Positions 11,965-25,200 of a stretch of DNA of 64,000 nucleotides are shown piece by piece. The stretch is from Mycolicibacterium sp. HK-90 (GTDB lineage Bacteria > Actinomycetota > Actinomycetes > Mycobacteriales > Mycobacteriaceae): NCBI RefSeq assembly GCF_030486405.1, contig NZ_CP129613.1:1798001-1862000 (forward strand), written 5' to 3'. A program made the translations under genes and the position numbers. Positions within the stretch are counted from its first letter, which is position 1. Every line of letters starts with the position of its first letter. The notes beneath the pieces were generated by a model. It was not told where the DNA came from. It saw only the letters and a list, made by a program, of their open reading frames with translations, and searched no databases.

Positions 11965-11983
11965 CCCGAGCCCATCCAGGGAA

Positions 11984-12907: not shown

Positions 12908-13219
12908 GTGATGAAGGGACCTGAGGATCCTGTCGACCACACCAGGACCACCCGGCCACATGCCGGCGAGACCATGAAGGACAACCGCAACATGCCCGCC
13001 CTGGCCTTGATCGGCGTGGGCGTGGTGTTGTTCGTGGCCTGCCTGTTCGCGTTCGCCACGGGTAACGCGGGCGTCGGGGTGTTGCTCGCCATTCTGGCGG
13101 CCGTCGGGATACTGGGCGGGGGACTGTGGCTGGCCATCGCGCACCTGCGGGTGCGCAAACTCGAAGAACGTTGGTATGCAGAACATCCCGACGTGATCAG
13201 GCAAACGCCCAACAGCTGA
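12908..13219 (+). CDS. usfY: UsfY-like membrane protein, copy 1
   Basis: 103 residues. A hydrophilic start with DPVDHTRTTRPHAGETMKD (residues 7-25) is followed by two membrane segments (about 30-51 and 54-78) and a tail with LRVRKLEERWYAEHPDV. This is the pattern of UsfY, encoded beside rsbW-sigF in M. tuberculosis; function unknown. A second copy sits at 23434-23742 with the same conserved motifs. This one lies 12 kb from sigF, downstream of the flavodoxin-fold gene, and ends at a strong terminator. Confidence 0.85.
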   Translation: MMKGPEDPVDHTRTTRPHAGETMKDNRNMPALALIGVGVVLFVACLFAFATGNAGVGVLLAILAAVGILGGGLWLAIAHLRVRKLEERWYAEHPDVIRQTPNS

Positions 13220-13291: not shown

Positions 13292-13534
13292 CTACGGTCG
13301 CTGGTGCGCCTGCTCACGCTGCTCAGCGGCCTTGGCTCCCGCCCGGGCCGATTCGGCTTCGGCCTCCTTCTTGGCGGCGTCCTGCTGGGCGTCGGCCTTG
13401 TCCTGCTGGGCTTTGCCCTCGCGTACGAGATCGTCGCGGCCGGTCACGGTGCCGACGGCTTCCTTGGCTTTGCCCTTGACGTCCTCGACGACGCCCTTGA
13501 TGGCTTCTTCAGGTCCTGAGTTCTTCTCGGTCAT
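13292..13534 (-). CDS. CsbD family stress-response protein
   Basis: 80 residues starting at the ATG at 13534. The N-terminal half carries the CsbD signature EAIKGVVEDVKGKAKEAVG (about residues 9-27) and GRDDLVREGKAQQDKADAQQ; the rest is a charged Ala/Lys/Glu-rich helix. CsbD proteins are small, highly induced general-stress proteins under sigma-B type control in other bacteria; the biochemical role is unknown. A SigF-like promoter lies at 13600-13623. Divergent from the methyltransferase gene. Confidence 0.88.
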   Translation of the reverse strand: MTEKNSGPEEAIKGVVEDVKGKAKEAVGTVTGRDDLVREGKAQQDKADAQQDAAKKEAEAESARAGAKAAEQREQAHQRP

Positions 13535-13599: not shown

Positions 13600-13623
13600 T
13601 TCCCCGATTCGCCGGTACTAAAC
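13600..13623 (-). promoter_or_regulatory. SigF-like promoter for csbD
   Basis: On the minus strand: GTTT, 15 bases, GGGAA. One mismatch from the mycobacterial SigF consensus GTTT-N15-17-GGGTA. It lies 65 bp upstream of the csbD start. Confidence 0.5.
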
Positions 13624-13657
13624 GTGACGTGACGAATCCGGCGGCAAGGCCGAACAA

Positions 13658-13681
13658 GTTTGCGGAGCGCCCCGATGGGTA
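13658..13681 (+). promoter_or_regulatory. SigF promoter for the methyltransferase/CDGSH pair
   Basis: GTTT (13658-13661), 15 bases, GGGTA (13677-13681): an exact match to the SigF consensus, 32 bp before the ATG at 13714. A second GGGTA at 13690 has no matching GTTT. Confidence 0.7.
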
Positions 13682-13713
13682 CCGAATAGGGGTACTTTCC
13701 GGAAGGGAGCGAG

Positions 13714-14391
13714 ATGGCTGTCGAGACCATTGCCGTTGGTGCCGAGGGTGTCTACCGGCCGCAGCACGATTCGTGGCTGCTGATCGACGCACTTGTGCGC
13801 AGCGAGGTGGTGGCCGGGCGCCAGGTGGTCGACCTGTGTGCCGGCAGTGGCGTCGTCGCCGTCGCCGCTGCCCATTTGGGCGCGAGTTCGGTGCTGGCGC
13901 TGGATATTTCACCCAATGCCGTGCGCTGCACGCAAGCCAACGCGATCGCCGCGCAGGTGGAGGTCGAGGCCAGGCTCGGTTCCTGGGTGCAAGCGCTCGA
14001 ACGTGATCCGTTCGACATCGTGGTCTGCAACCCGCCCTACGTCCCGGTCGGACCGGACACCGAGGCCGGCTCGATCCCGTCGGCCGGTCCGATGGCCTCA
14101 TGGGACGGTGGGCCGGACGGCCGACTGGTCCTCGACCCGCTGTGCGCGTCGGCCGGCACCCTCCTGGCCGACGGGGGCTGCCTTTTCCTCGTGCAGTCCG
14201 AGTTCGCCGACATCGAGCGATCGCTGACGATGCTGCGCGACGGGGGCCTCGATGCAGGCATCTGCGCCGGCCAACGGATTCCGTTCGGCCCGGTGCTGCG
14301 CTCGCAGGCTGGTTGGCTGCGGCACGCCGGGCTGCTGGAGGCCGGCCGGACCGACGAGGAGATCGTGGTCATCCGGGCGGACCGGCGATGA
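13714..14391 (+). CDS. HemK-like class I SAM-dependent methyltransferase
   Basis: 225 residues with a class I Rossmann methyltransferase fold: the SAM-binding loop VVDLCAGSGVVAVAAA (38-53), an acidic end of strand 2 (LALDIS), and the catalytic NPPY tetrad (106-109), which is typical of N5-glutamine and adenine-N6 methyltransferases. It resembles the HemK/PrmC and Mtq2 group; the target is unknown and it is distinct from the prmC paired with prfA. The start is preceded by GGGAGCGAG. Its stop overlaps the CDGSH start (ATGA), so the two are translationally coupled under the SigF promoter upstream. Confidence 0.87.
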   Translation: MAVETIAVGAEGVYRPQHDSWLLIDALVRSEVVAGRQVVDLCAGSGVVAVAAAHLGASSVLALDISPNAVRCTQANAIAAQVEVEARLGSWVQALERDPFDIVVCNPPYVPVGPDTEAGSIPSAGPMASWDGGPDGRLVLDPLCASAGTLLADGGCLFLVQSEFADIERSLTMLRDGGLDAGICAGQRIPFGPVLRSQAGWLRHAGLLEAGRTDEEIVVIRADRR

Positions 14392-14582
14392 CCGAGCAGC
14401 GGGCGGTCCGGGTGGTCGAGAACGGGCCGATCCTGATCGAGGGTCCGGTCCGGATCGAGCTTCCCGACGGGACCATCGTGGAATCGGACCGGTTCATGGT
14501 GGCGATCTGCACGTGCCGTCGGTCCAAGACGTACCCGTTGTGCGACACCAGTCACCGACGGTCACGGAAGCGGTCGGCATAG
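14388..14582 (+). CDS. CDGSH iron-sulfur protein
   Basis: 64 residues with one CDGSH motif, CTCRRSKTYPLCDTSH (41-56). The three Cys (41, 43, 52) and His56 are the ligands of a redox-active 2Fe-2S cluster; the usual DG of CDGSH is DT here. Single-CDGSH proteins act as redox or iron-sulfur transfer proteins. The start overlaps the methyltransferase stop by 4 bp, and its 3' end overlaps the convergent iron-enzyme gene by 21 bp. Confidence 0.88.
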   Translation: MTEQRAVRVVENGPILIEGPVRIELPDGTIVESDRFMVAICTCRRSKTYPLCDTSHRRSRKRSA

Positions 14583-15581
14583 CGAACTCTGTTGGCTCAG
14601 CCAGCATTCCATCAGGTGATCGGCCAACCTGTCCTCCATCGCGCAGAACGCCCGCATCCCGAACACCAGATCGGGTTCCAGGTCCGGCTCGCGCCTGATC
14701 AGATCACCGACCACGTCGTGGCGCACCACCTGTTCGTGCACCGCGTCGGCCTCGACATGCTCACGGTAGAACCGGACACAGGCCTCGGGTGCCCCCAGCC
14801 GCTGCAATGCGGTCACCATGCGTTGAGAGCCCGGGGAAGAGGTGATCTCGGTGGCCGCGAAGTGACCCGCCGCCGCCCCGCGCAGCCGGCGGTGCAGGCC
14901 GAACATCGACATCAGGTTCACCATCGCCAGGGTCTCGGCCGGCACGTTGCCGAGGTAGCCCAGATAGCTGTTGTCCAGGCCGGCTGCCGACATCAGATCG
15001 GCGAAGAGCTGCTGGTGGACCTGAGCCGCCCGCCCGGCCCCGTACTCGTCGAACTCGACCGCCACGAACGAGGCTTTCGCCTGACCGCCCAGCCGGGGAA
15101 TCAGCCAGGCGTGGGGATCGCCTTCCTTGAGGTGGTAGAGCGAGCGGTGGACGAAGTACTCCTGCATCTGGGGCCAGGTGCCCTCGTCCCGCAGGTGGTG
15201 GGACGGGCCGGTCCCGTCGACCGGATCGACCGATAGTCGCGCCATCTCGCGCTCCGCGGTGTCATCCGGGTCGATGGGGCCCACGTCGCGGCGGACCGCG
15301 GCCAGAAAGATCCGTTCGAACTGTGAACGCAGATGCAGCAGGCCCGCGTTCCATTCCCAGTCCTGATCGACCCCGGCGAATCCGCGGTAGTGCAGTTCGT
15401 AGCAGATGTACAGGGCGAGTTGGACATCCAGGCCGAGCGGGTCGGCATCGCGCAGCGGCACCCAGACGGGTTCCAGATGGTTGTGCGGGGCGCGGTCACC
15501 GAGCCGCTCGATGACCGCCGCCGAGATGGGCCCCTGTGCGTGCGGGAGCCCTGGCTGGGTGATGGGTGGGACGGCGGTCAT
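14562..15581 (-). CDS. Iron-containing redox enzyme, haem-oxygenase-like fold
   Basis: About 339 residues from the ATG at 15581. It belongs to the haem-oxygenase-like diiron oxidase/oxygenase group (iron-containing redox enzyme family): helices carry candidate metal ligands in ICYELHYRGF, FVHRSLYHLKEGDPHAW, FVAVEFDEYGAG and YREHVEADAVHEQVV. The reaction is unknown; relatives cleave C-C or oxidise amines. A SigF-like promoter lies twelve bases upstream of the start. Longer upstream readings lack family similarity. Confidence 0.82.
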   Translation of the reverse strand: MTAVPPITQPGLPHAQGPISAAVIERLGDRAPHNHLEPVWVPLRDADPLGLDVQLALYICYELHYRGFAGVDQDWEWNAGLLHLRSQFERIFLAAVRRDVGPIDPDDTAEREMARLSVDPVDGTGPSHHLRDEGTWPQMQEYFVHRSLYHLKEGDPHAWLIPRLGGQAKASFVAVEFDEYGAGRAAQVHQQLFADLMSAAGLDNSYLGYLGNVPAETLAMVNLMSMFGLHRRLRGAAAGHFAATEITSSPGSQRMVTALQRLGAPEACVRFYREHVEADAVHEQVVRHDVVGDLIRREPDLEPDLVFGMRAFCAMEDRLADHLMECWLSQQSSLCRPLP

Positions 15582-15593
15582 TGCCGACCGGTA

Positions 15594-15618
15594 TTCCCAT
15601 CCTGGGCGTTTGTGAAAC
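15594..15618 (-). promoter_or_regulatory. SigF-like promoter for the iron-containing redox enzyme
   Basis: Minus strand: GTTT (15618 to 15615), 16 bases, GGGAA (15598 to 15594), twelve bases before the start codon. The -10 differs from GGGTA at one base, as in the csbD promoter. Confidence 0.55.
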
Positions 15619-15650
15619 CGCCTGGCGCAGTGCGATTGCGGGAGCAACCA

Positions 15651-16142
15651 CTACTCGATGGTGCCGGGCGCGCCGGTGCCTGCGCCGTGCGAGGCAGTCG
15701 CCGTCTTGCCCAACAACAGACCCAGCGCGACCATGAGCACGCCCAGGGCGAAATGGAGCCAGTTGTCCGCGGTGTTCACCGGGATGAAGTTGGCCGGGCT
15801 CTCCCGGTCGATCACCAGCCCATAGAGCCACAGGACACCGTAGATCAGACCACCGCCGATCAGGAAGGCCCGAGCCGAGCCGAACTGGCGGGCCATCAGC
15901 AGACCGACCGCGCCGAACGCCAGGTGCACCAGGTTGTGGAGCACCGACACGTTGAACAGGCCGAGCAACATGGCACCGGAATGGTGTCCGGCCCAGGTCA
16001 GCTCGTCATAATTGCTGGTGATGCCGGGGATGAAGCCCAAGACGCCGACGATCAGGAACAGACTCGCGACGACCATGGCGCTGACCTGTAGCGGCGTCCA
16101 CTGCACGAGGCGGCCGGGGCTTCGTGGATTCGGTGTGCCCAT
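15651..16142 (-). CDS. DUF4383 membrane protein
   Basis: 163 residues with four hydrophobic segments (about residues 18-40, 57-80, 85-106, 127-147). The sequence GFIPGITSNYDELTWAGHHS and the LGLFNVSVLHNLVHLAFG helix are characteristic of DUF4383, an uncharacterised actinobacterial membrane family often found with stress genes. The start at 16142 is preceded by GAGAAAGGG. The next gene on the strand (iron-containing redox enzyme) begins 69 bp downstream and has its own promoter. Confidence 0.82.
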   Translation of the reverse strand: MGTPNPRSPGRLVQWTPLQVSAMVVASLFLIVGVLGFIPGITSNYDELTWAGHHSGAMLLGLFNVSVLHNLVHLAFGAVGLLMARQFGSARAFLIGGGLIYGVLWLYGLVIDRESPANFIPVNTADNWLHFALGVLMVALGLLLGKTATASHGAGTGAPGTIE

Positions 16143-16230
16143 GGGACAACCCTTTCTCTGCAAGCCGCGGCGCGCCGGACGGCCGATCGGCATGCCTCCG
16201 GATTCCCGCCCGCGGCCGATCCCACACGTC

Positions 16231-16255
16231 GTTTGCGCTGGGGCTTTCCGGGGTA
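16231..16255 (+). promoter_or_regulatory. SigF promoter for the small gene at 16289
   Basis: GTTT (16231-16234), 16 bases, GGGTA (16251-16255). Exact consensus; 33 bp before the ATG, leaving room for the GAGGTGAAG ribosome-binding site. Confidence 0.7.
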
Positions 16256-16288
16256 GCCAGATGCTGTCTCGGACACCGAGGTGAAGCC

Positions 16289-16483
16289 ATGACAACAACA
16301 TCTGCACCGACCGGCGGGCCCGAAGGCGTCTTCGGCCGGGTCGCCGAGATGATCCAGACGCAGCGCAGACGCGCGCTTGTCGAGCAGGCGGTCGCCGAAC
16401 TGGTATGGCACCTCGCGGGCGAGGATTACGTCACCGAGTGCGCAGAGCCGCCGACTGCCGACGGTAACCGGACCGCAGCGTGA
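16289..16483 (+). CDS. Small hypothetical protein, SigF-dependent
   Basis: 64 residues, not recognised. The middle (VFGRVAEMIQTQRRRALVEQ) looks like an amphipathic helix and the C-terminal third is polar. It has a clear ribosome-binding site and an exact SigF-type promoter. The last 53 bp overlap the convergent PRC-barrel gene, so the two messages are antisense at their ends. Confidence 0.6.
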   Translation: MTTTSAPTGGPEGVFGRVAEMIQTQRRRALVEQAVAELVWHLAGEDYVTECAEPPTADGNRTAA

Positions 16484-16769
16484 CGTGGTCTGAACTGATC
16501 CTGGCCACATCGTCCCAGCCGGCGAGGAACGTACCTCGATGCCGCCACCTGGCGACGGCGGCGATGACAGCAGGGGCGTTGATGCCGGTGCGTTCGAAGC
16601 CGAGGTAGGACGAACGGGTCCGCGGACTGACCACAAGGCCGACCAGCTCGGGCGCCCGTGGATGATCGGTGCGGTCGCCGGTCATCTCCAGCCGCACGTC
16701 CACCACGGTTCCGACCGGGTGATGACCGGCATCCAGGACGCGCAGCCCGAGAAGATTACTCAGCTGCAT
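16431..16769 (-). CDS. PRC-barrel-like protein 1
   Basis: 112 residues beginning MQLSNLLGLRVLDAGHHPVG, the usual opening of PRC-barrel domains (a small beta-barrel that binds protein or RNA). The following VVDVRLEMTGD and ELVGLVVSPRT fit the barrel strands. It is the last gene of a six-gene minus-strand run led by the SigF promoter at 19910-19933 and overlaps the second PRC-barrel gene by 14 bp. In other actinobacteria, PRC-barrel proteins accompany Mg/Nramp transporters, which supports a role with the transporter upstream. Confidence 0.75.
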   Translation of the reverse strand: MQLSNLLGLRVLDAGHHPVGTVVDVRLEMTGDRTDHPRAPELVGLVVSPRTRSSYLGFERTGINAPAVIAAVARWRHRGTFLAGWDDVARISSDHVTLRSGYRRQSAALRTR

Positions 16770-17121
16770 GGCGGCCTCCCGGGATGCGCGCGACGACGTG
16801 ATCGCGCAACCAGTGCTCCATCCAGTCAGCGTCAGAGGGAATACGGGACGCGGTCAGCCGTACCGTGACGCCCACCGAAGACACCAACTTCCACGGGATC
16901 TCGTGCAACATCGACCGTGGCGGCGCCCCACCGAGGATGCGGGTGATCATGACCTGCCCGGAGAGCACCGAAGTGACGCGGGGTCGCGGGCTGCCCGGTG
17001 TGATGTCGACGTCGGTGTCGACACCGTCAAGTTCGAGGTCGTCGACGATGCCGACCGGGGCGCCCTCGTGGTCGAGCAGTTGGCGGTCCAGCAGATGCAG
17101 GCGTGCGTCGATGATGGTCAT
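16756..17121 (-). CDS. PRC-barrel-like protein 2
   Basis: 121 residues, from the ATG at 17121 that overlaps the transporter stop (ATGA). LHLLDRQLLDHEGAPVGIVD (8-27) has the PRC-barrel pattern of a hydrophobic strand, polar turn and Gly-Val strand. It is followed by a longer insert and MLHEIPWKLVSSVG. Overlap with both neighbours implies coupled translation with the Nramp-related transporter and PRC-barrel protein 1. Confidence 0.75.
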   Translation of the reverse strand: MTIIDARLHLLDRQLLDHEGAPVGIVDDLELDGVDTDVDITPGSPRPRVTSVLSGQVMITRILGGAPPRSMLHEIPWKLVSSVGVTVRLTASRIPSDADWMEHWLRDHVVARIPGGRHAAE

Positions 17122-18347
17122 TGGCCTGCCCCGGTCACGATCATGAGCGGTATGGCTGCCAGTGAGGCAGCCAGGATGATCACCAGGTACACCGAACTGA
17201 ACAGGTTGAGCACCCTTCCGTTCGTCTTGTCTCCCATGTATTCCGGATCGTTGGCCACGATGAGGATCGGCAGGTAGGTGAGGGGTAGGGCGATGGCGGA
17301 GAACACCACCGAGTACTCCGTCACCATCACCGGGTCGATGCCGGTGAACAGGATGGCGGCGCCGACGACGATGCTCACGAACATCGCCACGTGGAAGCGC
17401 GATGCCTCGGCCGGGCGCCGGAACTTTCCCCATGGCCACCCGAAGAACTGGGCCAGGGTGTAGCCACTGGACAGCGTGGTCTCCAGCGCCGCACCGAAGG
17501 TGGCCGCCACGATGCCGACGATCGCGAACGCCAGGGCCAGCTTGCCGCCGGCCTCGGCGGCGGGCATCACCACGTGTGACAGCGATGTCACCTCGATCTG
17601 GCCGGGGAGCAGGACCAGCGTCGCGCACGCCGCGATGGCGACCGACAGGAAGCCGCCGAGCGGGAAGCCGATCAGCACGTTGAGTCGCGACACACCGAGA
17701 TCTTTTGTCTTCCAGTGCTCTTCCACGGCACCAGAGGAGAAGAAGAACACCTCGTACGGGGTCATGGCGGCGCCGAACAGGGCGATCGCGTAGTACCAGT
17801 AGGTCGCCGACGATTCGGTCTCCGGTATCACCGGCTGCGCGGCCTGATGGGCCAGTCCGCCCCAATCTGGTTGCAGCGCAAAGACTGCGACGGCGAACAC
17901 GATCAGGCACAGCCCCGCGAGCCCGGCGGTGTTCTCCATGACCGAGAACTTGACCCGCCAGATCACCAGCCACACCGCGACCGCCGCCACGGGGATCCAC
18001 ATCATCCGGCCGACGTCGGTGGCCAGTTGCAGAGCAAGTGCCACACCACCGATCTCGGCGGTCAGCGTCATCAGGTTGATCAGAAACGAGGCAGTCAGGT
18101 TTGCCGCCGCCGTGCGCGGTCCCAACCGTTCCCGGATGATCTCGAAGGTGGCGCGACCGCTGACGGCCGCCACCCGTCCTGCCATCTGGGCGAACAGGCA
18201 GATGCCGATCACGCCGACCACCACCACCCAGGCCAGCGCCAAACCGAACCGGGAGCCGACGACGGCATTGGTGACGAGATCACCGATGTCGAGGAATCCG
18301 CCTATGGCGGTCAGGATCCCCAGTGCTACCGCGAAGAACTTCTTCAT
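17118..18347 (-). CDS. Nramp-related divalent metal transporter with altered metal site
   Basis: 409-residue inner-membrane transporter of the LeuT-fold Nramp family, about eleven membrane segments. The family metal site is changed. TM1 normally has DPGN; here residues 20-23 read DIGD. TM6 normally has MPH; here 196-198 read TPY within AAMTPYEVFFFSSG, so the manganese-coordinating Met is Thr. Loss of that Met is known in Nramp-related magnesium transporters, so Mg2+ or another hard cation is more likely than Mn2+/Fe2+; this is inference. The start overlaps the upstream gene by 1 bp and the stop overlaps PRC-barrel 2. Confidence 0.85.
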   Translation of the reverse strand: MKKFFAVALGILTAIGGFLDIGDLVTNAVVGSRFGLALAWVVVVGVIGICLFAQMAGRVAAVSGRATFEIIRERLGPRTAAANLTASFLINLMTLTAEIGGVALALQLATDVGRMMWIPVAAVAVWLVIWRVKFSVMENTAGLAGLCLIVFAVAVFALQPDWGGLAHQAAQPVIPETESSATYWYYAIALFGAAMTPYEVFFFSSGAVEEHWKTKDLGVSRLNVLIGFPLGGFLSVAIAACATLVLLPGQIEVTSLSHVVMPAAEAGGKLALAFAIVGIVAATFGAALETTLSSGYTLAQFFGWPWGKFRRPAEASRFHVAMFVSIVVGAAILFTGIDPVMVTEYSVVFSAIALPLTYLPILIVANDPEYMGDKTNGRVLNLFSSVYLVIILAASLAAIPLMIVTGAGQ

Positions 18348-18826
18348 CAGCGGTAACCGGCTTCCAGTTCATCTGCCGAGGCCCTGAGTTGATCGCGCAG
18401 CGCGGCCAGGTCAGGTTCGGCGGTGATCTCGCGGACCCGGGCCGAGGCGCTGCCGAGTTGGCCGATCACCGTTGTCATGACCTCGGTCAGCATCCGCTGG
18501 CGATCCAGATCGACCGGATCGTCGGCCTTCAGATCGGCAATTCCCTCGTAGGCCTTGACCACTTCCTCACGCGCATCGGAGATCTGGACACTGACCACCT
18601 GTGGTGTCGTGCGGTCACGGAGCCGGAGATCGAGCGCGTAGGCGCCGCTGCGCGCGGCCGCCACTGTTTCCTCCATGGCCTTCGCGAGTTGACCGGGCGT
18701 GCCGTCACGGTTGGCCGGGCACTGGGTCAGCAACACCGCCAGCGCGGCGATCAGCAGGGCGGCAATGATTGCCACCCGTATTCGTCGCGGCCTGTCCTCG
18801 TCGCGCGCCACGGCGGTCCCCCTCAC
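18347..18826 (-). CDS. Membrane-anchored hypothetical protein
   Basis: 159 residues from a GTG at 18826 that overlaps the SDR stop (GTGA). An arginine-rich start is followed by one membrane segment (about residues 17-35), then a helical extracytoplasmic domain rich in Ala, Asp and Glu. The sequence around Cys36 (LLTQC) is not a good lipobox. No family recognised. Placed between the stress SDR and the Nramp-related gene in the same overlapping operon. Confidence 0.72.
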   Translation of the reverse strand: MRGTAVARDEDRPRRIRVAIIAALLIAALAVLLTQCPANRDGTPGQLAKAMEETVAAARSGAYALDLRLRDRTTPQVVSVQISDAREEVVKAYEGIADLKADDPVDLDRQRMLTEVMTTVIGQLGSASARVREITAEPDLAALRDQLRASADELEAGYR

Positions 18827-19671
18827 CCGGGCAGTGTTTCGCCGCCCAACGGAGCCAGGACCTCACCGCTGTAGTACGACGAGAGCTGGTTGGCGGCGAA
18901 GAACACGTACGAGGGGGCGATCTCGTCGGGTTGCGCGGCGCGACCGAAAGGCGTGTGTTCGCCGAAGGATTCGACGCGTTCGGAATCCATGGTGGCGGGG
19001 ATCAGCGGGGTCCACACCGGTCCGGGGGCCACGCAGTTGACCCGGATCCGCCGGTCGGCCAGGGACTGCGCCAGCGAATAGGTGAGCGCGATGACGGCAC
19101 CTTTGGTGGCCGAATAGTCCATCAGGGTCTTGTTCCCGCGCAGGCCGTTGATCGAGGCGGTGTTGATGATGGCACCGCCGTCCGGCAGATGCGCCAGTGC
19201 CGCCTTCGTGACGTGGAAGTAACTGTCGATGTTGACGGCGAAGGTGTGTCGCCATTGTTCATCGGTGATGTCGGTGAAGCGCTCGGTCGGCGACTGATAG
19301 GCGACGTTGTTCACCAGCACGTCGATTCCGCCCAGCGCGCCGGCCGCGCGGCTGACCGCTGCGCGGCACTGCTCGGCCTCGGCCAGATCGCCGGGCAGTC
19401 GCAGGCAACGCCGACCGGCGCGCTCCACCAGCGCTGCGGTGTGGGTGGCGTCGTCGTGCTCCTCGAGGTAGGCGATCGCGACATCGGCGCCTTCCTTGGC
19501 GAACGCGATCGCCACCGCACGGCCGATACCCGAATCGCCGCCGGTGACCAACGCACGCTTACCGTCGAGCAACCCGCGGCCGACATATCCGGCCATCTCG
19601 TCACGCGGCGCCGCGGGCATGTCCGAGGTATGGCCGGGATAGCTGATGACCGTGTCATTTCCAGGCTGCAT
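18823..19671 (-). CDS. General-stress SDR oxidoreductase (YghA/YhdF-like)
   Basis: 282 residues. The N-terminal extension (GHTSDMPAAPRDEMAGYVGR) and the NAD(P) motif TGGDSGIGRAVA (about residues 43-54) are typical of the YghA/YhdF group of SDRs, many of which are general-stress proteins. Catalytic residues: NTASING serine region and YSATK. It follows the small acidic gene by 12 bp, and the next gene overlaps its stop. Likely expressed from the SigF promoter at 19910-19933. Confidence 0.87.
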   Translation of the reverse strand: MQPGNDTVISYPGHTSDMPAAPRDEMAGYVGRGLLDGKRALVTGGDSGIGRAVAIAFAKEGADVAIAYLEEHDDATHTAALVERAGRRCLRLPGDLAEAEQCRAAVSRAAGALGGIDVLVNNVAYQSPTERFTDITDEQWRHTFAVNIDSYFHVTKAALAHLPDGGAIINTASINGLRGNKTLMDYSATKGAVIALTYSLAQSLADRRIRVNCVAPGPVWTPLIPATMDSERVESFGEHTPFGRAAQPDEIAPSYVFFAANQLSSYYSGEVLAPLGGETLPG

Positions 19672-19683
19672 GTCGATGCGCCC

Positions 19684-19899
19684 CTAGTCTTCGCGGCCGT
19701 CGCGATCGAACTCGTCGAACCCGGAGTCGTCAGTGACCATCTCGCGTTGTTCCTGCCAGTCCGGATCGGTGGCCTCCAACGGTGGCCCGTCCAAGTCCGT
19801 GACGGGTACCTCGGCGTCGGGCACCGGTTCGCTGTGCTCACGTTGCTGCTCGAGTGCGTCAGCTACGGGCACCTCATCGGGCAGGTCTTCGCGGGTCAT
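19684..19899 (-). CDS. Small acidic hypothetical protein, first gene of a SigF operon
   Basis: 71 residues, strongly acidic, no recognised family (contains TDLDGPPLEATDPDWQEQRE). The ATG at 19899 lies exactly 10 bases after the GGGTA of an exact SigF promoter, so the transcript is probably leaderless; this fixes the start over a longer reading to 20037. It heads a run of six closely spaced or overlapping genes down to 16431. Confidence 0.68.
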   Translation of the reverse strand: MTREDLPDEVPVADALEQQREHSEPVPDAEVPVTDLDGPPLEATDPDWQEQREMVTDDSGFDEFDRDGRED

Positions 19900-19909
19900 A
19901 CTGCCGGGA

Positions 19910-19933
19910 TACCCGGTGCCCCTTCGACCAAAC
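19910..19933 (-). promoter_or_regulatory. SigF promoter of the six-gene operon 19899 to 16431
   Basis: Minus strand: GTTT (19933 to 19930), 15 bases, GGGTA (19914 to 19910), followed by TC. Exact consensus; ten bases separate GGGTA from the start codon at 19899. Confidence 0.75.
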
Positions 19934-20105
19934 TCTTCGAGCGTTGACGTGACCGTTGTCCGGATAGTTCGGCCCGCGAACTCCGCTGCGCCGCGATCAG
20001 TCCCCGCGCGGCACGGGACATCATCGACCGCCAGCATCTCCGTGGACGCAATTGCACTGGAGCCAAAGAGATTTCAGGTGATGCGAGTGTCTCCGTCCGC
20101 TGACG

Positions 20106-21119
20106 TCAGCCGCCCACCTTTCGGATCATCCGGGCGGTACTGCCCTCAAGAATCGCCTGGCGCTTGTCGCTGTTTCTGACGCGAGCCGCACGGCGCACTC
20201 CGGCGGCGATGGTCAGTCCGCCCCGGTATGCTTCGACCACCCGGGGATCGACGTAGGCACTCCGGGCGACCGCGGGGGTGTTGCCCAGCGCCTCGGCCAC
20301 CTCCCGCATCACCGCGGATTCGACCCGCTTGACCACCTTCCCGTCGACCGGGGGATCGGCGCCGACGAACGCCTCGGCGGCCAGCACGGTGCCGTGCCAG
20401 GTGCGCAGGTCTTTGACGGTGTAGTCCTCGCCGATCATCTCCTTGAACCGGAGGTTCAGATCCTCGGCATGCACCTCCGTCCATTCGTGCGCGTGGCGGT
20501 AGGCCAGAAGCCGATCACCATTGCCCCGACTCCGCTGCAGGGACCGGACCGCTCGCGTCACCGCAGGATCCTCGACCAGCAGGGTACGACGGATACCGCT
20601 CTTGGCCGGATAGTCGAACTCGACGGCCTCCGAACGCAGGGTGATGTGTTCGCGCAGCAGCGTGGCGATACCGAAAGAGTTGTTCTCCTCGGCGTACTGG
20701 TCCCCACCGGCGCGGAAGTACCCGAGGTCGAGCAGGCGCAGTCCCAGCGCCAGCACGCGGTCGCGGGTCAGGCCACGACACCGCAGATCGGCGGCGATGT
20801 CGTTGCGCCAGTCAACGAGTCCGGCCGACAACTCCAACACCCGGTCGAACTTCTCCTCACGGCGATCCTCCTGCCACTGGGCGTGGTAGAGATACTGGCG
20901 CCGGCCCGCGGCATCGGTACCTGCGGCCTGGATGTGCCCGTTCGGATACGGGCAGATCCATACCTTTTTCCACGCCGGGGGGATCACCAGACCTTCGATG
21001 CGTCGCAGCGTCTCGGGGTCGGAGACCGTGGCCCCGCTGTCGTCGCGGTAACCGAACCCGCGACCACGCCGGATCCGCTGCAGACCCGGCCCCCCGACGG
21101 AGCTGTGGCGCAGTCTCAT
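20106..21119 (-). CDS. Type IB DNA topoisomerase (poxvirus-like)
   Basis: 337-residue topoisomerase that relaxes supercoils by transient single-strand cleavage. The catalytic Tyr is Tyr289 in NTPAVARSAYVDP; Arg239 and His242 in DLRTWHGT are active-site residues, with further Arg/Lys in SGIRRTLLVED. Length and motif order match bacterial homologues of the vaccinia enzyme. Start ATG at 21119 lies 52 bp from the divergent RsbW-like gene. Its place inside a SigF-controlled island suggests a role in stressed cells, which is inference. Confidence 0.9.
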   Translation of the reverse strand: MRLRHSSVGGPGLQRIRRGRGFGYRDDSGATVSDPETLRRIEGLVIPPAWKKVWICPYPNGHIQAAGTDAAGRRQYLYHAQWQEDRREEKFDRVLELSAGLVDWRNDIAADLRCRGLTRDRVLALGLRLLDLGYFRAGGDQYAEENNSFGIATLLREHITLRSEAVEFDYPAKSGIRRTLLVEDPAVTRAVRSLQRSRGNGDRLLAYRHAHEWTEVHAEDLNLRFKEMIGEDYTVKDLRTWHGTVLAAEAFVGADPPVDGKVVKRVESAVMREVAEALGNTPAVARSAYVDPRVVEAYRGGLTIAAGVRRAARVRNSDKRQAILEGSTARMIRKVGG

Positions 21120-21135
21120 CGGAACCGTCGTCCTG

Positions 21136-21161
21136 GTTTAGCCACCGGACGAGGATGGGTA
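21136..21161 (+). promoter_or_regulatory. SigF promoter for the extra RsbW-like gene
   Basis: GTTT (21136-21139), 17 bases, GGGTA (21157-21161). Ten bases separate GGGTA from the ATG at 21172. Confidence 0.65.
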
Positions 21162-21171
21162 CGAGGCAAAC

Positions 21172-21771
21172 ATGGCATTGTCAGGGCATTCCGGTAGCGG
21201 AGAGGAGAATGTCTGCCGGCCAAGTTCCGGTGGCAAACCTGATGACCGCGGGCCCAGTCGTAGACCGGGCCCGTCGTTGACTGTGTTGCACGGGCGGCGA
21301 ATACCCCGCTGGGGCGCAGGTCACACGCGCGGACCCCGAGCTGTCGAACTACGGGTGCCGGCCCGCGCCGACGCGCTGGCCGTGGTGCGAGCGATGACGG
21401 GCACCTTGGCCAGCTATGAGGAGCTGGATCGGGAAACGGCTGCCGACCTGGCATTGGCGGTGGATGAGGCCTGCACGGTGCTGATCGGTATGGCCGCTGC
21501 CGACGCCCCATTGGTGCTTGTCGAAGATCCACGCGCCCGCGAGGTGAACGTGCGGGTTTCGACGATCTGCGAGGGAGCCGAGCCCGAAGGTGTCGAGCCC
21601 GGCTCCGCCGGATTCACGCTGAGCGGCTTCAGCCGCCGGGTCCTGGAGGCGCTGACGGACAAGGTTCGGACCTTCGCCGACGACATCGACTCCGAGGAAA
21701 CCGGCAGCCGCAGCCCGGCGTTCGGTATCTCGCTGACCATCCGGCGGCGATGGGCGCCGGCCCGCGTTTAG
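21172..21771 (+). CDS. RsbW-like anti-sigma factor, second copy without a sigma gene
   Basis: 199 residues. From about residue 57 it aligns with the SigF anti-sigma RsbW (UsfX) encoded at 26025: VELRVPARADALAVVRAMTG, DLALAVDEACTVLI (N-box region of the GHKL ATPase fold), and FGISLTIRRRW at the end. The first ~55 residues are extra and unconserved. The ATG at 21172 is preferred because it lies ten bases after a SigF promoter, but an internal GTG near 21279 would remove most of the extension. The STAS gene is convergent and overlaps by 4 bp, so this copy has a cognate antagonist nearby but no sigma factor. The partner is unknown. Confidence 0.78.
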   Translation: MALSGHSGSGEENVCRPSSGGKPDDRGPSRRPGPSLTVLHGRRIPRWGAGHTRGPRAVELRVPARADALAVVRAMTGTLASYEELDRETAADLALAVDEACTVLIGMAAADAPLVLVEDPRAREVNVRVSTICEGAEPEGVEPGSAGFTLSGFSRRVLEALTDKVRTFADDIDSEETGSRSPAFGISLTIRRRWAPARV

Positions 21772-22205
21772 CGCCGGCCGCGGTCCAGGTCCACCAACTG
21801 AAGTTGCCTCGGCTGGTTACGCAGCTTCGCGAGCGCCGACGGCAGACCGGTGGAGGTCGGCAAGGCCCGCTCCGGGTCGCAGATTCGCAGCACTCTGGAC
21901 ACCGCGGGGCTGGGGATCAGGACCCAATCGATGTTCGCGCCGGCACATTGCACGTTGAGAGTGTGTAGGCAGGCGAAGCAGCAGGCGCCGAAGAACTCGA
22001 CGGCACGCATGTCCAGCACGAGCTGGCCGCTCGGCCTGGTGTTCCGGAGGCTGCATTCGGTCAGCTCGGCGGCGTTTGACGCGTCCAACTCACCACGGAC
22101 GCTGATGACTTCCGTGGCAGGCCACAGCCACCTGGTGCCGAACTGCGCGTGGGTGTGGTCGCCGAGAGGCGGTGAGGTCGATCTCGCGACACTTATTGTC
22201 TGCAC
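21768..22205 (-). CDS. STAS-domain anti-sigma antagonist, copy 1 (degenerate phosphosite)
   Basis: 145 residues from a GTG at 22205. STAS fold with VISVRGELDASNAAEL and the DMRAVEFFGACCFACL helix. The position that carries the phosphorylated Ser in SpoIIAA/RsbV (DSSG) reads GACC, so RsbW-type phosphorylation is unlikely; four Cys cluster in and after this helix. It shares the C-terminal block IDWVLIPSPAVSRVLRICDP with the STAS protein at 27179. Mycobacterial RsfA is a redox-controlled SigF antagonist, so thiol control is a reasonable guess. Convergent with the RsbW-like gene; shares an upstream 20-bp element and a similar leader with the other STAS gene. Confidence 0.8.
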   Translation of the reverse strand: MQTISVARSTSPPLGDHTHAQFGTRWLWPATEVISVRGELDASNAAELTECSLRNTRPSGQLVLDMRAVEFFGACCFACLHTLNVQCAGANIDWVLIPSPAVSRVLRICDPERALPTSTGLPSALAKLRNQPRQLQLVDLDRGRR

Positions 22206-22272
22206 TTTGTGACTCCCTCAGTAGAAATACTGCGGTCCCGTCACGCTCAGGTTCTGTGGGCTCAAACCCCTA

Positions 22273-22300
22273 GGTGCAGGGAGTCTCACGACCCTGCACC
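22273..22300. promoter_or_regulatory. Perfect 9-bp inverted repeat upstream of STAS copy 1
   Basis: GGTGCAGGG (22273-22281) and CCCTGCACC (22292-22300) with a 10-base spacer, 68-95 bp before the STAS start on the minus strand. It could be an operator, or a leader hairpin if transcription starts farther upstream. The equivalent position of STAS copy 2 lacks it. Confidence 0.55.
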
Positions 22301-22316
22301 CGTTGACGATTCCGGG

Positions 22317-22336
22317 GCGGCTGTGAACTCAACCTG
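22317..22336. repeat. 20-bp element upstream of STAS genes, copy 1
   Basis: GCGGCTGTGAACTCAACCTG, identical to 27699-27718. Here it ends about 110 bp before the start of STAS copy 1 (minus strand). Confidence 0.75.
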
Positions 22337-22497
22337 CATTGGACTCTACGCCGGACGATGAGCACGAACAATGATCATGGACACCGGCATCACCACTCCT
22401 GCCCCGTCAGCCCCAGCAGTTCCGCTGGAAACGCAGGGAAACAGGTACCGCTGACGGCTCAATTCCTTTGGCGGACAAGCTGTGCGGTTGGCGGCGG

Positions 22498-22522
22498 GTT
22501 TGACCTGCACTTCGGCCGGGTA
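22498..22522 (+). promoter_or_regulatory. SigF promoter for the small membrane gene at 22533
   Basis: GTTT (22498-22501), 16 bases, GGGTA (22518-22522) then T. Ten bases separate GGGTA from the ATG at 22533. Confidence 0.75.
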
Positions 22523-22532
22523 TTCGCCCGCC

Positions 22533-22766
22533 ATGAGACTCGGTGGATTGTTCGGAACGCTTGTGCTCATCTGGCTGCTGATCGGCGTCGTGGCCGCCTG
22601 GCAGCGCGACTATTTCCAGGGCGGATCAACCAACTGCGCGACCGCCGGCGCCATAGCGCTGACGGTTCTCGCCGGACCGCTGAACTATGCGGGCGTCAAT
22701 CCGAAGGTAGACGAGTGCCGTTTGCCGCAACCCAGTGCGATGGACTCCATCGCCGTCGTGAAATGA
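22533..22766 (+). CDS. Small membrane protein, SigF-dependent
   Basis: 77 residues. One membrane segment near the start (LFGTLVLIWLLIGVVAAW, about residues 6-23), then QRDYFQGGSTNCATAGAIAL and a second weaker hydrophobic stretch, with a polar tail. Family not recognised; small proteins of this type accompany stress genes in fast-growing mycobacteria. The start follows an exact SigF promoter at the leaderless distance. The DUF6131 gene follows 7 bp later. Confidence 0.72.
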   Translation: MRLGGLFGTLVLIWLLIGVVAAWQRDYFQGGSTNCATAGAIALTVLAGPLNYAGVNPKVDECRLPQPSAMDSIAVVK

Positions 22767-22773
22767 GGTCGTC

Positions 22774-22929
22774 ATGATTCTGCTCGGCGCGATCCTGCTC
22801 ATCCTGGGCTTGGTCCTGGACGTCTACCTGCTCTGGGTGGTCGGCGTGATCCTGCTGGTGATCGGTGCGGTCTTCTGGCTGCTCGGCGCCATCGGGCGCC
22901 CGGTGGCCGGCCGGCGGAGCTGGTACTGA
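22774..22929 (+). CDS. DUF6131 small membrane protein
   Basis: 51 residues, nearly all membrane: MILLGAILLILGLVLDVYLL, a second segment with VVGVILLVIGAVFWLLGAIG, then the conserved tail RPVAGRRSWY. The pattern is that of DUF6131, short two-helix proteins widespread in actinobacteria and of unknown role. It lies 7 bp after the SigF-controlled small membrane gene, so it is probably in the same transcript. Confidence 0.78.
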   Translation: MILLGAILLILGLVLDVYLLWVVGVILLVIGAVFWLLGAIGRPVAGRRSWY

Positions 22930-22978
22930 CGCGGACCATCGACCACAACACCCACATCACTGACACGGGAGGTGCATG

Positions 22979-23236
22979 ATGCCGAATCCTTCGATCAAAG
23001 ACGAGAAGCTCTATGAGGAGTTGCGCGAAGAAGGAAATTCCAAGGAGAAGGCCGCGCGGATCTCCAACGCCGCTGCCGCCAAGGGGCGTTCGAGCGTCGG
23101 GCGTTCCGGCGGAGAGTCCGGTTCGTATGACGACTGGACTGTCGATCATCTGCGCAGCCGGGCGAAAGAGCTTGGCATCAAAGGGTATTCCGACAAGAAC
23201 AAGCGCGAGCTGATCGGCATGCTACGACATCATTGA
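22979..23236 (+). CDS. DUF7218/Rho-N-like small protein
   Basis: 85 residues. The N-terminal half (KLYEELREEGNSKEKAARIS NAAA, split here for length) resembles DUF7218, and the C-terminal DDWTVDHLRSRAKELGIKG YSDKNKRELI region is a SAP/Rho-termination-factor N-terminal fold that can bind nucleic acid. Two ATG codons are adjacent (22976, 22979); the second is better placed after GGGAGG. It lies 49 bp after the DUF6131 gene and ends at a strong terminator. Specific function unknown. Confidence 0.78.
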   Translation: MPNPSIKDEKLYEELREEGNSKEKAARISNAAAAKGRSSVGRSGGESGSYDDWTVDHLRSRAKELGIKGYSDKNKRELIGMLRHH

Positions 23237-23273
23237 CCGGAAACCACTGACCGCCGAAGGGCAGATGACCCTG

Positions 23274-23305
23274 GAATGGCCCCGCGACCGCCAGCGGGGC
23301 CATTC
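23274..23305. terminator. Intrinsic terminator after the DUF7218-like gene
   Basis: GAATGGCCCCGC (23274-23285) pairs perfectly with GCGGGGCCATTC (23294-23305) across an 8-base loop. It separates the small SigF gene cluster from usfY copy 2. Confidence 0.78.
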
Positions 23306-23433
23306 TCTGCGTAGCCGTCGACTGTCCGGAGCGGTAGGCGATCTGGTGGTTTCCTCGCCAGAGCCGTCTCGGAGATCTACCGTGGAAGAAGCCCATAAGG
23401 CAATGGGGCGAGAAGTGGCGGGAAGGAGCAGCC

Positions 23434-23742
23434 ATGCACGGCCCAAAAGATCCAGTTGACCATGCCCGGACGACACGGCCGCATGCCGGCGAGTCCATGA
23501 AAGACAACGTCATCATGCCCGCGATCGTCTTGATCCTCGTGTCGGTGGTGCTTTTCGTCGGCACCTTGGCCGCGTTCGCAACCGGCCACCCCGATGTCGG
23601 GTTGACCGTGGGTGCGCTGTCGGCGGCCGGCTTCCTCATCGGGGCGATGTGGCTCGCGCTCGAGCACCTGCGGGTACGCCGCATCGAGGACCGCTGGTAC
23701 TCGGATCATCCCGGAGTGCTCAAGCAGCGGCCCAGCAGCTGA
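23434..23742 (+). CDS. usfY: UsfY-like membrane protein, copy 2
   Basis: 102 residues, clearly paralogous to the protein at 12908: DPVDHARTTRPHAGESMKD (residues 6-24), two membrane segments (about 29-50 and 56-77), and LRVRRIEDRWYSDHPGVLK at the end. This copy is closer to rsbW-sigF, but the 23819-25722 genes intervene. A GGAAGGAG ribosome-binding site precedes the ATG. Function unknown; the conserved polar N-terminus suggests a binding surface. Confidence 0.87.
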   Translation: MHGPKDPVDHARTTRPHAGESMKDNVIMPAIVLILVSVVLFVGTLAAFATGHPDVGLTVGALSAAGFLIGAMWLALEHLRVRRIEDRWYSDHPGVLKQRPSS

Positions 23743-23757
23743 GCCCTCCCGCGCACG

Positions 23758-23780
23758 ACCCGGCCGCCATGCGGCCGGGT
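23758..23780. terminator. Bidirectional terminator after usfY copy 2
   Basis: ACCCGGCCGC (23758-23767) pairs perfectly with GCGGCCGGGT (23771-23780) across a 3-base loop, between convergent genes. Confidence 0.72.
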
Positions 23781-23818
23781 TCGTCGCTTGCCGACGCCCG
23801 GGAGCGGGGTTCCAGGAC

Positions 23819-24163
23819 TCAGAACGTCAGGGCCAGGATCGCGAAATCGATTGCCAGCAGTGCTAATCCGACCAGGGGGACCAGTATTCCCCAGCGCAGC
23901 CGCGAGGTGAAGATCGACAGGGCGAGGGTCACCACGGGCACCACGGGCGCACCATAGAACAGAATCCCGAACCAGAATTCCCCCGGCCCCTTGTCGGCGC
24001 AGGCCTGCCCGGTGCAACCGGCCATGCCCATCACCACGCCCATGCCGTACAGGAATACCAGAATGGCCGCGGGCACCGTCAGAATGGCAAGCACCCACGT
24101 CAGGGACATCCGCATCCGTCCGTCGGCATTGCGCTCGGTCTGCACAGTCTGTGATTCGGTCAT
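23819..24163 (-). CDS. Three-helix membrane protein, possibly SigF-dependent
   Basis: 114 residues with about three membrane segments (residues 21-44, 66-86, 90-112) and a Cys-containing loop MAGCTGQACADKGPGEFW. Family not recognised. On its own strand GGGTA (24178 to 24174) lies ten bases before the ATG, the same geometry as the leaderless SigF genes here, but no GTTT is found at 15-17 bases. Divergent from the F420-dependent oxidoreductase. Confidence 0.75.
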   Translation of the reverse strand: MTESQTVQTERNADGRMRMSLTWVLAILTVPAAILVFLYGMGVVMGMAGCTGQACADKGPGEFWFGILFYGAPVVPVVTLALSIFTSRLRWGILVPLVGLALLAIDFAILALTF

Positions 24164-24179
24164 TGCCTTCGCATACCCA

Positions 24180-24203
24180 GTTTCGTGGCCTTATGCACGG
24201 GTA
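24180..24203 (+). promoter_or_regulatory. SigF promoter for the F420-dependent oxidoreductase
   Basis: GTTT (24180-24183), 15 bases, GGGTA (24199-24203) then T. Ten bases separate GGGTA from the ATG at 24214. Confidence 0.75.
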
Positions 24204-24213: not shown

Positions 24214-25200
24214 ATGGCCAGATTCGGATACACCCTGATGACCGAGCAGAGCGGTCCGCGTGAGCTGGTCGGCTACGCGGTGTCCGCGGAGCAGGTGGGC
24301 TTCGACTTCGAGGTGTGCAGTGATCACTACAGTCCGTGGCTGGCCAGCCAGGGCCACGCCCCCAACGCCTGGCCGGTGCTCGGAGCGGTGGCCCATGCCA
24401 CCGACACCGTGCAGCTGTACTCCTACGTCACCTGCCCGACCATCAGGTATCACCCCGCGATCGTCGCCCAGCAGGCCGCCACCGTTCAGATCCTGGCCGA
24501 CGGCCGGTTCACCCTCGGCCTGGGAAGCGGTGAGAACCTCAATGAACACGTCGTCGGCCGCGGCTGGCCCACGGTCGAGCGACGCCTGGACATGCTGGCC
24601 GAGGCGGTCAAGCTGATCCGGGAACTGCTCTCCGGTGACCTGATCGACTTCCGTGGCGAGTTCTACGAGGTGGACTCGGCGCGTATCTGGGATGTGCCCG
24701 ACGATCCGGTGACCATCGGGGTCTCGATCACTGGCGAGAAGGCCGTCGAGAAGCTGGCCGTGGCCGCCGATCACCTGATCAACGTCGCGCCCGACCGGGC
24801 CATCGTCGACCATTGGCGGGACCGCCGTCACGCGACCGGAGGGCTGCCCGAAGGACGGGTGATCGGACAGGTACCGGTGTGCTGGGACCCCGACCGGGAT
24901 GCCGCGGTGGAGCGGGCGCACGACCAGTTCCGCTGGTTCGGCGGGGGCTGGGCGGTCAACGCCGACCTGCCCACTCCCGCTGGATTCGCCGCGGCGACGC
25001 GGTTCGTGCGGCGTGAGGACGTGGCCGAGGCCATCCCGTGTGGGCCCGACCTGGACGCCATCGTCGCGGCGGTGGCGCCCTACCGGGACGCGGGATTCAC
25101 CGACATCGCCCTGGTGCAGATCGGTGACGAGGGGCAGCAGCGGTTCCTCGACGAGGCGGCAAAGCCGCTACTCGCTGCGCTGCGGGCCGAGCTGGACTGA
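24214..25200 (+). CDS. F420-dependent LLM-class oxidoreductase (FGD-like)
   Basis: 328-residue luciferase-like (TIM barrel) enzyme of the group near F420-dependent glucose-6-phosphate dehydrogenase. Typical features: FEVCSDHYSPWL near residue 35, TIRYHPAIVAQQAATVQIL, RFTLGLGSGENLNEHV (about 105-120) and the SITGEKAVEKLA segment, which line the F420 and substrate pocket. It should transfer hydride to or from F420; the substrate is unknown. The ATG at 24214 is chosen because it sits ten bases after a SigF promoter; an in-frame upstream ATG would lie before the predicted transcript start. F420 itself is made by fbiA and fbiB further along the window. Confidence 0.87.
   Translation: MARFGYTLMTEQSGPRELVGYAVSAEQVGFDFEVCSDHYSPWLASQGHAPNAWPVLGAVAHATDTVQLYSYVTCPTIRYHPAIVAQQAATVQILADGRFTLGLGSGENLNEHVVGRGWPTVERRLDMLAEAVKLIRELLSGDLIDFRGEFYEVDSARIWDVPDDPVTIGVSITGEKAVEKLAVAADHLINVAPDRAIVDHWRDRRHATGGLPEGRVIGQVPVCWDPDRDAAVERAHDQFRWFGGGWAVNADLPTPAGFAAATRFVRREDVAEAIPCGPDLDAIVAAVAPYRDAGFTDIALVQIGDEGQQRFLDEAAKPLLAALRAELD

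Follow-up and report, generated by a model that had tools for sequence, protein, structure and literature searches.

How does a set of genes with SigF-type promoters come to stand beside the gene of its own sigma factor, and is it really controlled by that factor? The question is raised by a 64-kb stretch (the window, meaning that whole stretch) of the single-contig, 6.49-Mb genome of Mycolicibacterium sp. HK-90, where open reading frames (ORFs) and Pfam matches between 9314 and 27208 give the order lat, a PAS-ANTAR protein, a stress block and rsbW1-sigF, with a second STAS gene after them; it is the Aminotran_3 gene at the left border of the block that we take to be lat. A preliminary description of this DNA saw here a SigF-controlled stress island, inserted beside sigF and brought along with its sigma factor. 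According to our analysis the SigF-controlled stress block is borne out by enrichment of the sites, by their conservation and by delta-sigF data for M. smegmatis counterparts (PMC4694148). The insertion is not borne out. With a probability of roughly 86%, which covers the block of SigF promoters, the stress mechanism and the variable gap taken together, we hold that the block is no recent insert: SigF-regulated genes are gained and lost in this gap, and the block is the form it has in this lineage.

All eight sites of the form GTTT-N15-17-GGGTA, or one base off it, that had been listed at the outset were found again, six of them exact and two with GGGAA, and they stand 10-65 bases before start codons, which agrees with the limit of about 65 bp first given (Table 1; distances are the bases between the end of the -10 element and the start codon). 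The bounds of 13600..24203 set for the block were too narrow, with extra sites at 11959+, 21302- and 25742+ and a weak one at 24174-. About fifteen presumed transcription units reach from lat to sigF, rsbW-sigF included; for eleven of them the analysis supports a SigF-type promoter (GTTT-N15-17-GGGTA/GGGAA or something close to it), one more has a weak promoter, and a cluster of genes with SigF sites is present directly upstream of rsbW-sigF. For six of the twelve sites, one being the weak 24174-, the distance to the start codon is 10-12 bases; the mRNAs from these six are therefore probably almost leaderless, with leaders of a few bases if transcription starts 6-7 bases past the -10 element.

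The six exact sites of the block are the only ones in the window. The genome as a whole holds 39, where the reversed pattern gives 29. Six sites within 13.8 kb, when the rest of the genome has 33, have a Poisson probability of 1.6e-10; when 39 sites were scattered at random 200,000 times, no trial put six within 10.5 kb, and twenty control stretches (400 kb) contained 3 exact sites. For the exact sites the genome-wide check of enrichment that had been proposed, made here as a pattern scan, thus came out in favour of the block.

In the upstream regions of relatives the letters of the -35 and -10 elements are kept while those of the spacer change. The exact site precedes every relative of the methyltransferase (11/11) and of the 77-aa (amino acid) gene (16/16), 11 of 13 relatives of rsbW3 (with N17) and the four detectable relatives of the 64-aa ORF, two of which (loci L052 and L135) are one genome. 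A site with at least 8 of the 9 letters was found for 35 of 41 csbD relatives, for the redox enzyme in 12/12, for the acidic 71-aa gene that heads the presumed operon in 13/14 (exact in 10), for the luciferase-like gene in 14/14 (exact in 11), for topoisomerase IB within the 300 bases upstream in 50 of 55 cases, and for rsbW-sigF within 300 bases in 59 of 75 relatives. Seven of 13 FMN reductase relatives have such a site within 400 bases, five of them in the form GTTT-N16-GGGAA (L039, L045, L047, L135, L052, the last two again one genome), and both DUF4383 relatives show GGTT-N15-GGGTA. The 24174- site of the small membrane protein reaches 7/9 in 13/13 relatives, with GGGTAT kept in the nine listed, a conservation that may stem from its overlap with 24180+. 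An 8/9 site is rare or absent before PAS-ANTAR (1/21), DUF6328 (1/15), rsfA (0/15), the second STAS gene (0/21) and the Nramp gene inside the operon (0/13). These counts, like those of STAS upstream regions given below, are not fully independent, since named and unnamed locus sets share genomes (e.g. L042/L136, L052/L135, L076/L137).

A block like this one has already been reported as SigF-dependent in M. smegmatis, and similar, changing blocks lie beside sigF in many of the relatives examined. Table 1 of PMC4694148 gives 28 locus tags from MSMEG_1758 to 1804 as lower in delta-sigF (microarray, both growth phases). Compared by gene order, product names, site type and distance, MSMEG_1766-1804 is like the window: it lies beside rsbW-sigF and contains a methylase, a topoisomerase, RsbW, UsfY, dehydrogenases and conserved small proteins. 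The sites run parallel (PMC4694148): GTTT-N15-GGGTA at 29 for MSMEG_1771 (32 in the window), GTTT-GGGAA at 11 for MSMEG_1773 (12, with a spacer one longer), GTGT-N16-GGGTA, an unusual form, at 183 for the topoisomerase MSMEG_1784 (182), GTTT-N17-GGGTA at 56 for the RsbW gene MSMEG_1787 (same spacer, at 10), GTTT-N15-GGGTA at 221 for MSMEG_1782 (238 to the dehydrogenase start), GTTT-N16-GGGAA at 32 for MSMEG_1766 (40), and for sigF (MSMEG_1802/1804) GTTT-N16-GGGCA, the motif of 25742+. In M. smegmatis rsbW3 expression requires sigF and rsbW3 overexpression raises SigF activity (PMC7693655); rsfA is not SigF-dependent there (PMC4694148), with which the missing SigF site of rsfA in the window agrees. 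Differences concern a P450 (MSMEG_1775), which stands in that Table 1 and is not among the window ORFs scanned, and chaB, reported behind the sigF promoter: the window keeps the promoter, and no ChaB-like ORF was seen by eye in the three forward frames of 25767-26030, where no profile search was made. As names, order and site types run parallel in the two species, the core finding is known biology in another species, and from enrichment, conservation and the delta-sigF microarray of the counterparts we consider SigF control of the block well supported.

It would be logical to suggest that stress inactivates the anti-sigma factor RsbW1 via RsfA/RsfB-type antagonists and so frees SigF, which would then transcribe CsbD, the methyltransferase with CDGSH, the redox enzyme, the Nramp/dehydrogenase operon, topoisomerase IB, the small proteins and the luciferase-like enzyme. 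Freed SigF may also transcribe rsbW3, which would boost the response, and rsbW-sigF itself. The genes of RsfA (STAS) and RsbW3 (HATPase, a match under the Pfam cut-off) adjoin each other, and for this strain we infer from the M. smegmatis analogy the same SigF dependence and the same role of RsbW3.

To what extent the gap between lat and sigF is special can be judged from the genus, where SigF has a match at E<=1e-60 in 58 of 60 genomes. Loci were fetched from 44 of the 57 other genomes (13 were left for short contigs or a weaker match), at 20 kb except for one stretch of 15.5 kb and one of 5.8 kb, and one locus, L177, was dropped for a SigF match of 61%. In the remaining 43 loci, 17 of which have no lat found and are counted with everything upstream of sigF, the interval of 459 kb contains 104 exact sites vs 3 in the adjoining 383 kb; for the 26 with lat the numbers are 58 in 175.5 kb and 1 in the adjoining 340 kb. 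These 26 intervals measure from 1.6 to 15.9 kb. With the window added (27 loci, genes called by our own script), a site with at most one mismatch stands directly upstream of 109/254 interval genes vs 17/348 outside, an exact one upstream of 53 vs 0. The same intervals hold 79 gene families, of which 37 occur in a single genome and 4 in more than half. Among rare cargo, that is families in at most three genomes, an upstream site was found for 20 of 94 genes, so that much of it is not visibly SigF-driven. Nineteen complete genomes (window included) have 50 exact sites near sigF vs 1.57 expected from rounded genome sizes, and 14 reach p<0.01. In the literature searched we found papers on the M. 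smegmatis regulon and none on the clustering of SigF promoters in this gap across the genus; Humpel 2010 and Gebhard 2008, to which the regulon papers refer, may discuss it.

Beyond the genus, 39 genomes of the family have a match and 16 of them, mostly the best-scoring, were fetched. The 20-kb stretches around their best SigF match contain 27 exact sites vs 1.94 expected, with 7/16 at p<0.01 and 5/16 without any; lat was not found beside SigF in these 16 loci, except for one weak (27%) aminotransferase match. Relatives of csbD, DUF7218, the 77-aa gene, DUF6131 or the methyltransferase lie near SigF-type genes in some of these loci (L178-L193), for example in L178, L185, L186 and L189, where exact SigF-type sites accompany them. 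In L177 the SigF paralog (61%) stands near relatives of the methyltransferase, CDGSH, the redox enzyme, topoisomerase IB and STAS/RsbW, and the same gene company thus recurs around a different SigF copy.

Does the promoter follow the gene or the place? Topoisomerase IB has a match in 41 and the methyltransferase in 49 of the 60 genus genomes. Where loci were given (30 for each gene), a site of at least 8/9 lies within 200 bases of topoisomerase IB in 11/14 cases far from sigF and in 11/16 near it, a count that misses the window's own site, which is beyond the 200 bases; 700 bases further upstream the control gave 0/29. The methyltransferase has the exact site in 4/4 loci near sigF and an 8/9 site with GGGCA in 24/26 far from it, with 1/30 in the control 700 bases upstream, and the far copies, only 51-62% identical, may be paralogs. 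On the antisense strand sites of at least 8/9 occur near sigF in 16/16 topoisomerase and 4/4 methyltransferase loci, as expected from divergent SigF sites of the neighbours, and far from it in 1/14 and 2/26; shuffled letters reach 8/9 in 1-5%. As the distant relatives mostly have SigF-like sites, SigF control seems to follow the gene rather than its location, and the clustering would either have arisen secondarily by gathering or be an old cluster of which part has dispersed. Of the claim of a local assembly there stands a gradual gathering only. A tree of near and far topoisomerase genes (quick method) requires at least three changes; with 19 of its 45 inner branches open and long outgroups we claim no direction. 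The direction of gathering, as well as operon limits and exact transcript starts, is inferred.

Several points weigh against our reading. Three of the fifteen or so units (DUF4383, rsfA, DUF6328) have no SigF site, topoisomerase IB has here only the GTGT variant, and 6/13 FMN reductase relatives are without an 8/9 site, so that 11959+ is recovered only in part. The pattern scan that favoured exact sites gave no significant enrichment for one-mismatch sites alone (6 in the block vs 2.9 expected, p 0.07), for which reason the two one-base-off sites rest on conservation. Exact sites beyond the block (33 vs 29 for the reversed control) are barely above background, so that isolated matches elsewhere are not trustworthy and the motif alone is weak evidence. 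Five of the 19 complete genomes miss p<0.01, two of these having no exact site near sigF. The M. smegmatis likeness is one of gene order, product names and site type and distance, and the published sites of MSMEG_1788 and 1794 differ from those of the window, while MSMEG_1770 has a spacer and -10 element slightly unlike its counterpart's (PMC4694148).

Among the alternatives the best surviving one, which we consider possible and clearly the less probable, is an ancient large SigF block that is eroding, lost or dispersed in many lineages. It would be in line with csbD in 25/44 intervals and with relatives of csbD, duf7218, duf6131, s77 and mtase/cdgsh near SigF-type genes in some outgroup loci, but the family spectrum described above implies turnover and not loss alone, and the tree cannot give the direction.

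Very unlikely is a horizontally acquired island with its own sigma factor and targets, inserted beside lat. Such an origin could explain why 7 of the 26 loci with lat have a gap of no more than 1.6-2.7 kb, and the G+C content about 2 points under that of the flanks (66.3% vs 68.4% and 68.1%), which is not clearly foreign. Against it, sigF has a match in 58 of the 60 genus genomes while block genes such as the methyltransferase and the 77-aa gene occur in only 5/44 intervals, close relatives mostly keep the same gene order, and similar families and site clusters accompany SigF-type genes in other genera. No integrase or transposase occurs among the window ORFs scanned with Pfam (not every block ORF was scanned), the window has no tRNA (ARAGORN), and the longest direct repeat in 10500-29500, besides the usfY duplication, is 41 bases at 71%. 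A foreign mobile island was rejected on mobility genes (none among the ORFs scanned), tRNA and composition; with a gap that varies widely in the genus loci examined and with clustering near SigF-type genes in other genera, neither "inserted" nor "carried with its own sigma factor", as the preliminary description has it, is supported.

Hardly more credible is another sigma factor of the same preference: motif scans cannot name a sigma factor and the genome has 28 Sigma70_r2 matches, yet the sigF protein is its own sole match there at E<=1e-60 and at E<=1e-50, and the M. smegmatis counterparts depend on sigF (PMC4694148). Chance matches in GC-rich DNA have a negligible probability in spite of the unenriched one-mismatch sites and the small genome-wide excess, in view of the clustering and the conservation; for the exact sites as a group chance is refuted.

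Table 1. Promoter sites, genes and leader elements between lat and the second STAS gene (positions in the window).
Feature	Position	Strand	Remarks
SigF site GTTT-N16-GGGAA for Cys-rich ORF / FMN reductase / UsfY-like	11959..11983	+	40 bases before 80-aa ORF
Cys-rich 80-aa ORF	12024..12266	+	no Pfam family above cut-off
NADPH-dependent FMN reductase	12281..12898	+	PF03358
UsfY-like membrane protein	12908..13219	+	paralog of 23434..23742 (62% identity); no Pfam above cut-off; named from position and "UsfY protein" entries in PMC4694148
CsbD-like protein	13292..13534	-	PF05532
SigF site GTTT-N15-GGGAA for csbD	13600..13623	-	one base off; 65 bases to start codon
SigF site GTTT-N15-GGGTA for methyltransferase-CDGSH	13658..13681	+	exact; 32 bases to start codon
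Small-domain methyltransferase	13714..14391	+	PF05175
CDGSH iron-sulfur protein	14388..14582	+	PF09360
Haem-oxygenase-like iron-containing redox enzyme	14562..15581	-	PF14518; start set at ATG, Pfam run on 14562..15647
SigF site GTTT-N16-GGGAA for redox enzyme	15594..15618	-	one base off; 12 bases to start codon
DUF4383 membrane protein	15651..16142	-	PF14325; best own SigF site 7/9
SigF site GTTT-N16-GGGTA for 64-aa ORF	16231..16255	+	exact; 33 bases to start codon
64-aa ORF, no assigned family	16289..16483	+	Pfam scan, relatives
Presumed operon	16431..19899	-	from overlaps and orientation; last to first: 112-aa ORF, 121-aa ORF, Nramp transporter, 159-aa protein, short-chain dehydrogenase, acidic 71-aa protein
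Nramp transporter	17118..18347	-	PF01566
Short-chain dehydrogenase	18823..19671	-	PF13561
Acidic 71-aa protein	19684..19899	-	first gene of presumed operon
SigF site GTTT-N15-GGGTA, head of Nramp/dehydrogenase operon	19910..19933	-	exact; 10 bases to start codon
DNA topoisomerase IB	20106..21119	-	PF01028, PF21338
SigF site GTTT-N17-GGGTA for rsbW3	21136..21161	+	exact; 10 bases to start codon
RsbW3-type HATPase	21172..21771	+	HATPase_c_2 E 2.3e-5, under Pfam cut-off; start codon uncertain
SigF-like site GTGT-N16-GGGTA for topoisomerase IB	21302..21326	-	within rsbW3; 182 bases before topoisomerase IB
RsfA-type STAS anti-anti-sigma protein	21768..22205	-	PF01740; no SigF site
16-base element GGTTGAGTTCACAGCC	22319..22334	-	at predicted 5' end of rsfA mRNA; leader 22206..22336
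SigF site GTTT-N16-GGGTA before 77-aa gene	22498..22522	+	exact; 10 bases to start codon
Three small genes: 77 aa, DUF6131, DUF7218	22533..23236	+	77 aa without family; DUF7218 with Rho_N just under cut-off
UsfY-like membrane protein	23434..23742	+	no Pfam family; best own SigF site 6/9
Small membrane protein	23819..24163	-	
Weak divergent site GTGC-N16-GGGTA for small membrane protein	24174..24198	-	
SigF site GTTT-N15-GGGTA for luciferase-like gene	24180..24203	+	exact; 10 bases to start codon
Luciferase-like oxidoreductase, probably F420-dependent	24214..25200	+	PF00296
DUF6328 membrane protein	25168..25767	-	PF19853; best SigF site 6/9
Presumed autoregulatory SigF site GTTT-N16-GGGCA	25742..25766	+	258 bases before rsbW
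rsbW1 anti-sigma factor	26025..26459	+	PF13581, Pfam run on 25971..26459
sigF	26456..27208	+	Sigma70 r2/r3/r4
Second RsfA-type STAS protein	27179..27601	-	44% identical to first; PF01740, Pfam run on 27179..27739
16-base element GGTTGAGTTCACAGCC	27701..27716	-	second STAS gene; leader 27602..27718

Two arrangements of opposed sites were observed. At 24174-24203 two SigF-like sites overlap, the -35 element of the luciferase-like gene lying inside the spacer of the weaker divergent site, and between 21136 and 21326 the sites of rsbW3 (+) and topoisomerase IB (-) are so placed that the 5' ends of their transcripts would overlap antisense, by about 130 bases to judge from the positions of 21136+ and 21302-. 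The RsbW3-type HATPase is 45-46% identical to rsbW1, and the two UsfY-like genes form direct repeats 10,523 bases apart (DNA 72% and 71%). By its topoisomerase IB, among named relatives closest to M. houstonense (92-93%) and next, at 83-85%, to M. senegalense, M. peregrinum, M. septicum and M. porcinum, among others, the host is a Mycobacterium of what we take to be the M. fortuitum group.

The two STAS genes, which have no SigF site, share another feature, a 16-base element in their leaders. Its only exact copies in the host genome are these two, with seven more at one or two mismatches and no match for the reversed control. All 16 letters are present in 61 of 86 STAS-gene upstream regions and at least 14 in 78, where shuffles reach 12 at most. 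Exact copies, 45 in total, occur in 38 of the 60 genus genomes and are absent from 22, and all 30 copies examined for it have a STAS gene 76-220 bases downstream. In all of 92 distinct leaders (picked by the core GGTTGA-N5-CAGCC, identical ones dropped) a TAnnnT hexamer ends 7-11 bases before the element, in 87 of them at 7-8 bases vs 2.0 for shuffled letters, and in 75 a TTG lies 17-18 bases further up. This arrangement looks like a SigA promoter ahead of the element, and the mRNA would in that case begin with the element itself. We found no description of the element in the literature searched, which included passages of PMC9569102 and PMC10950880 and left out most subscription papers.

The element can form a 5-bp hairpin, GGUUG-N6-CAGCC, invariant in 54 leaders, and in many leaders the 3' end can fold into a hairpin covering GGAG, the ribosome-binding site. 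In 53 leaders 76.9% of the cells of this 3' hairpin pair, vs 22.8-47.0% in slid versions and a mean of 75.4% in shuffles (11/500 as high). Covariation (score 0.108) equals that of shuffles, 249/500 of which are as high; changes on both sides affect 7 pairs vs 6.0 in shuffles. A class of 39 leaders, selected out of 85 for the letters they share, has 1233/1332 cells paired and two-sided changes in 4/35 pairs (by our own script, with no control). Fold z-scores of 40 leaders average -1.35 (7 below -2) vs -0.43 for 40 other upstream stretches (3 below -2; p 1e-5); for twelve leaders taken singly the values lie between -1.06 and -3.13, with -1.28 and -2.89 for the window's two. Rfam gave nothing over gathering in the window and, at E<=1 in 21700-28000, one chance-level microRNA match. 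An RNA structure of the STAS leaders is thus likely, and not proved as covariation is no higher than in shuffles; the element may instead be a DNA operator at the start site.

We may tentatively join the two observations, a combination that we hold for rather doubtful as a whole: the lat-sigF gap would be a genus-wide gathering place with genes moving in and out, joined by an RNA switch on the RsfA-type antagonists. The regulon would be physically concentrated beside its own sigma gene while its membership turns over. A SigA-type promoter would start the RsfA-type mRNA at the 16-base element with its possible 5-bp hairpin, and a structured leader would follow, its last hairpin covering the ribosome-binding site.

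General stress regulons of SigB and RsbW in Firmicutes work by partner switching of sigma factor, anti-sigma kinase and STAS antagonist, with CsbD as a target. Partner switching and the CsbD target are shared with the window, whereas SigB targets are scattered and here many adjoin the sigma gene. The usfX-sigF locus of M. tuberculosis, which is not known to have the large block, is like the window in keeping lat, a UsfY-like gene, the anti-sigma factor and sigF together, usfY being presumably an exception to the preliminary description's statement that this species has none of these genes. The same four stand together in short-interval loci of the genus, e.g. L164, L169 and L172. RsfA of M. 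tuberculosis is Rv1365c (PMC7693655), presumably far from sigF.

For an organism of the M. fortuitum group, the analysis provides a testable set of SigF promoters, their starts predicted to be almost leaderless. In place of an inserted island it puts a variable gap which collects SigF-regulated genes, and why regulons gather beside their sigma gene is thereby opened to comparative tests. If the shared leader of RsfA-type genes is real, SigF activation would have a new point of control in it, and the RNA switch, if true, would supplement partner switching with a layer of signal-sensing RNA.

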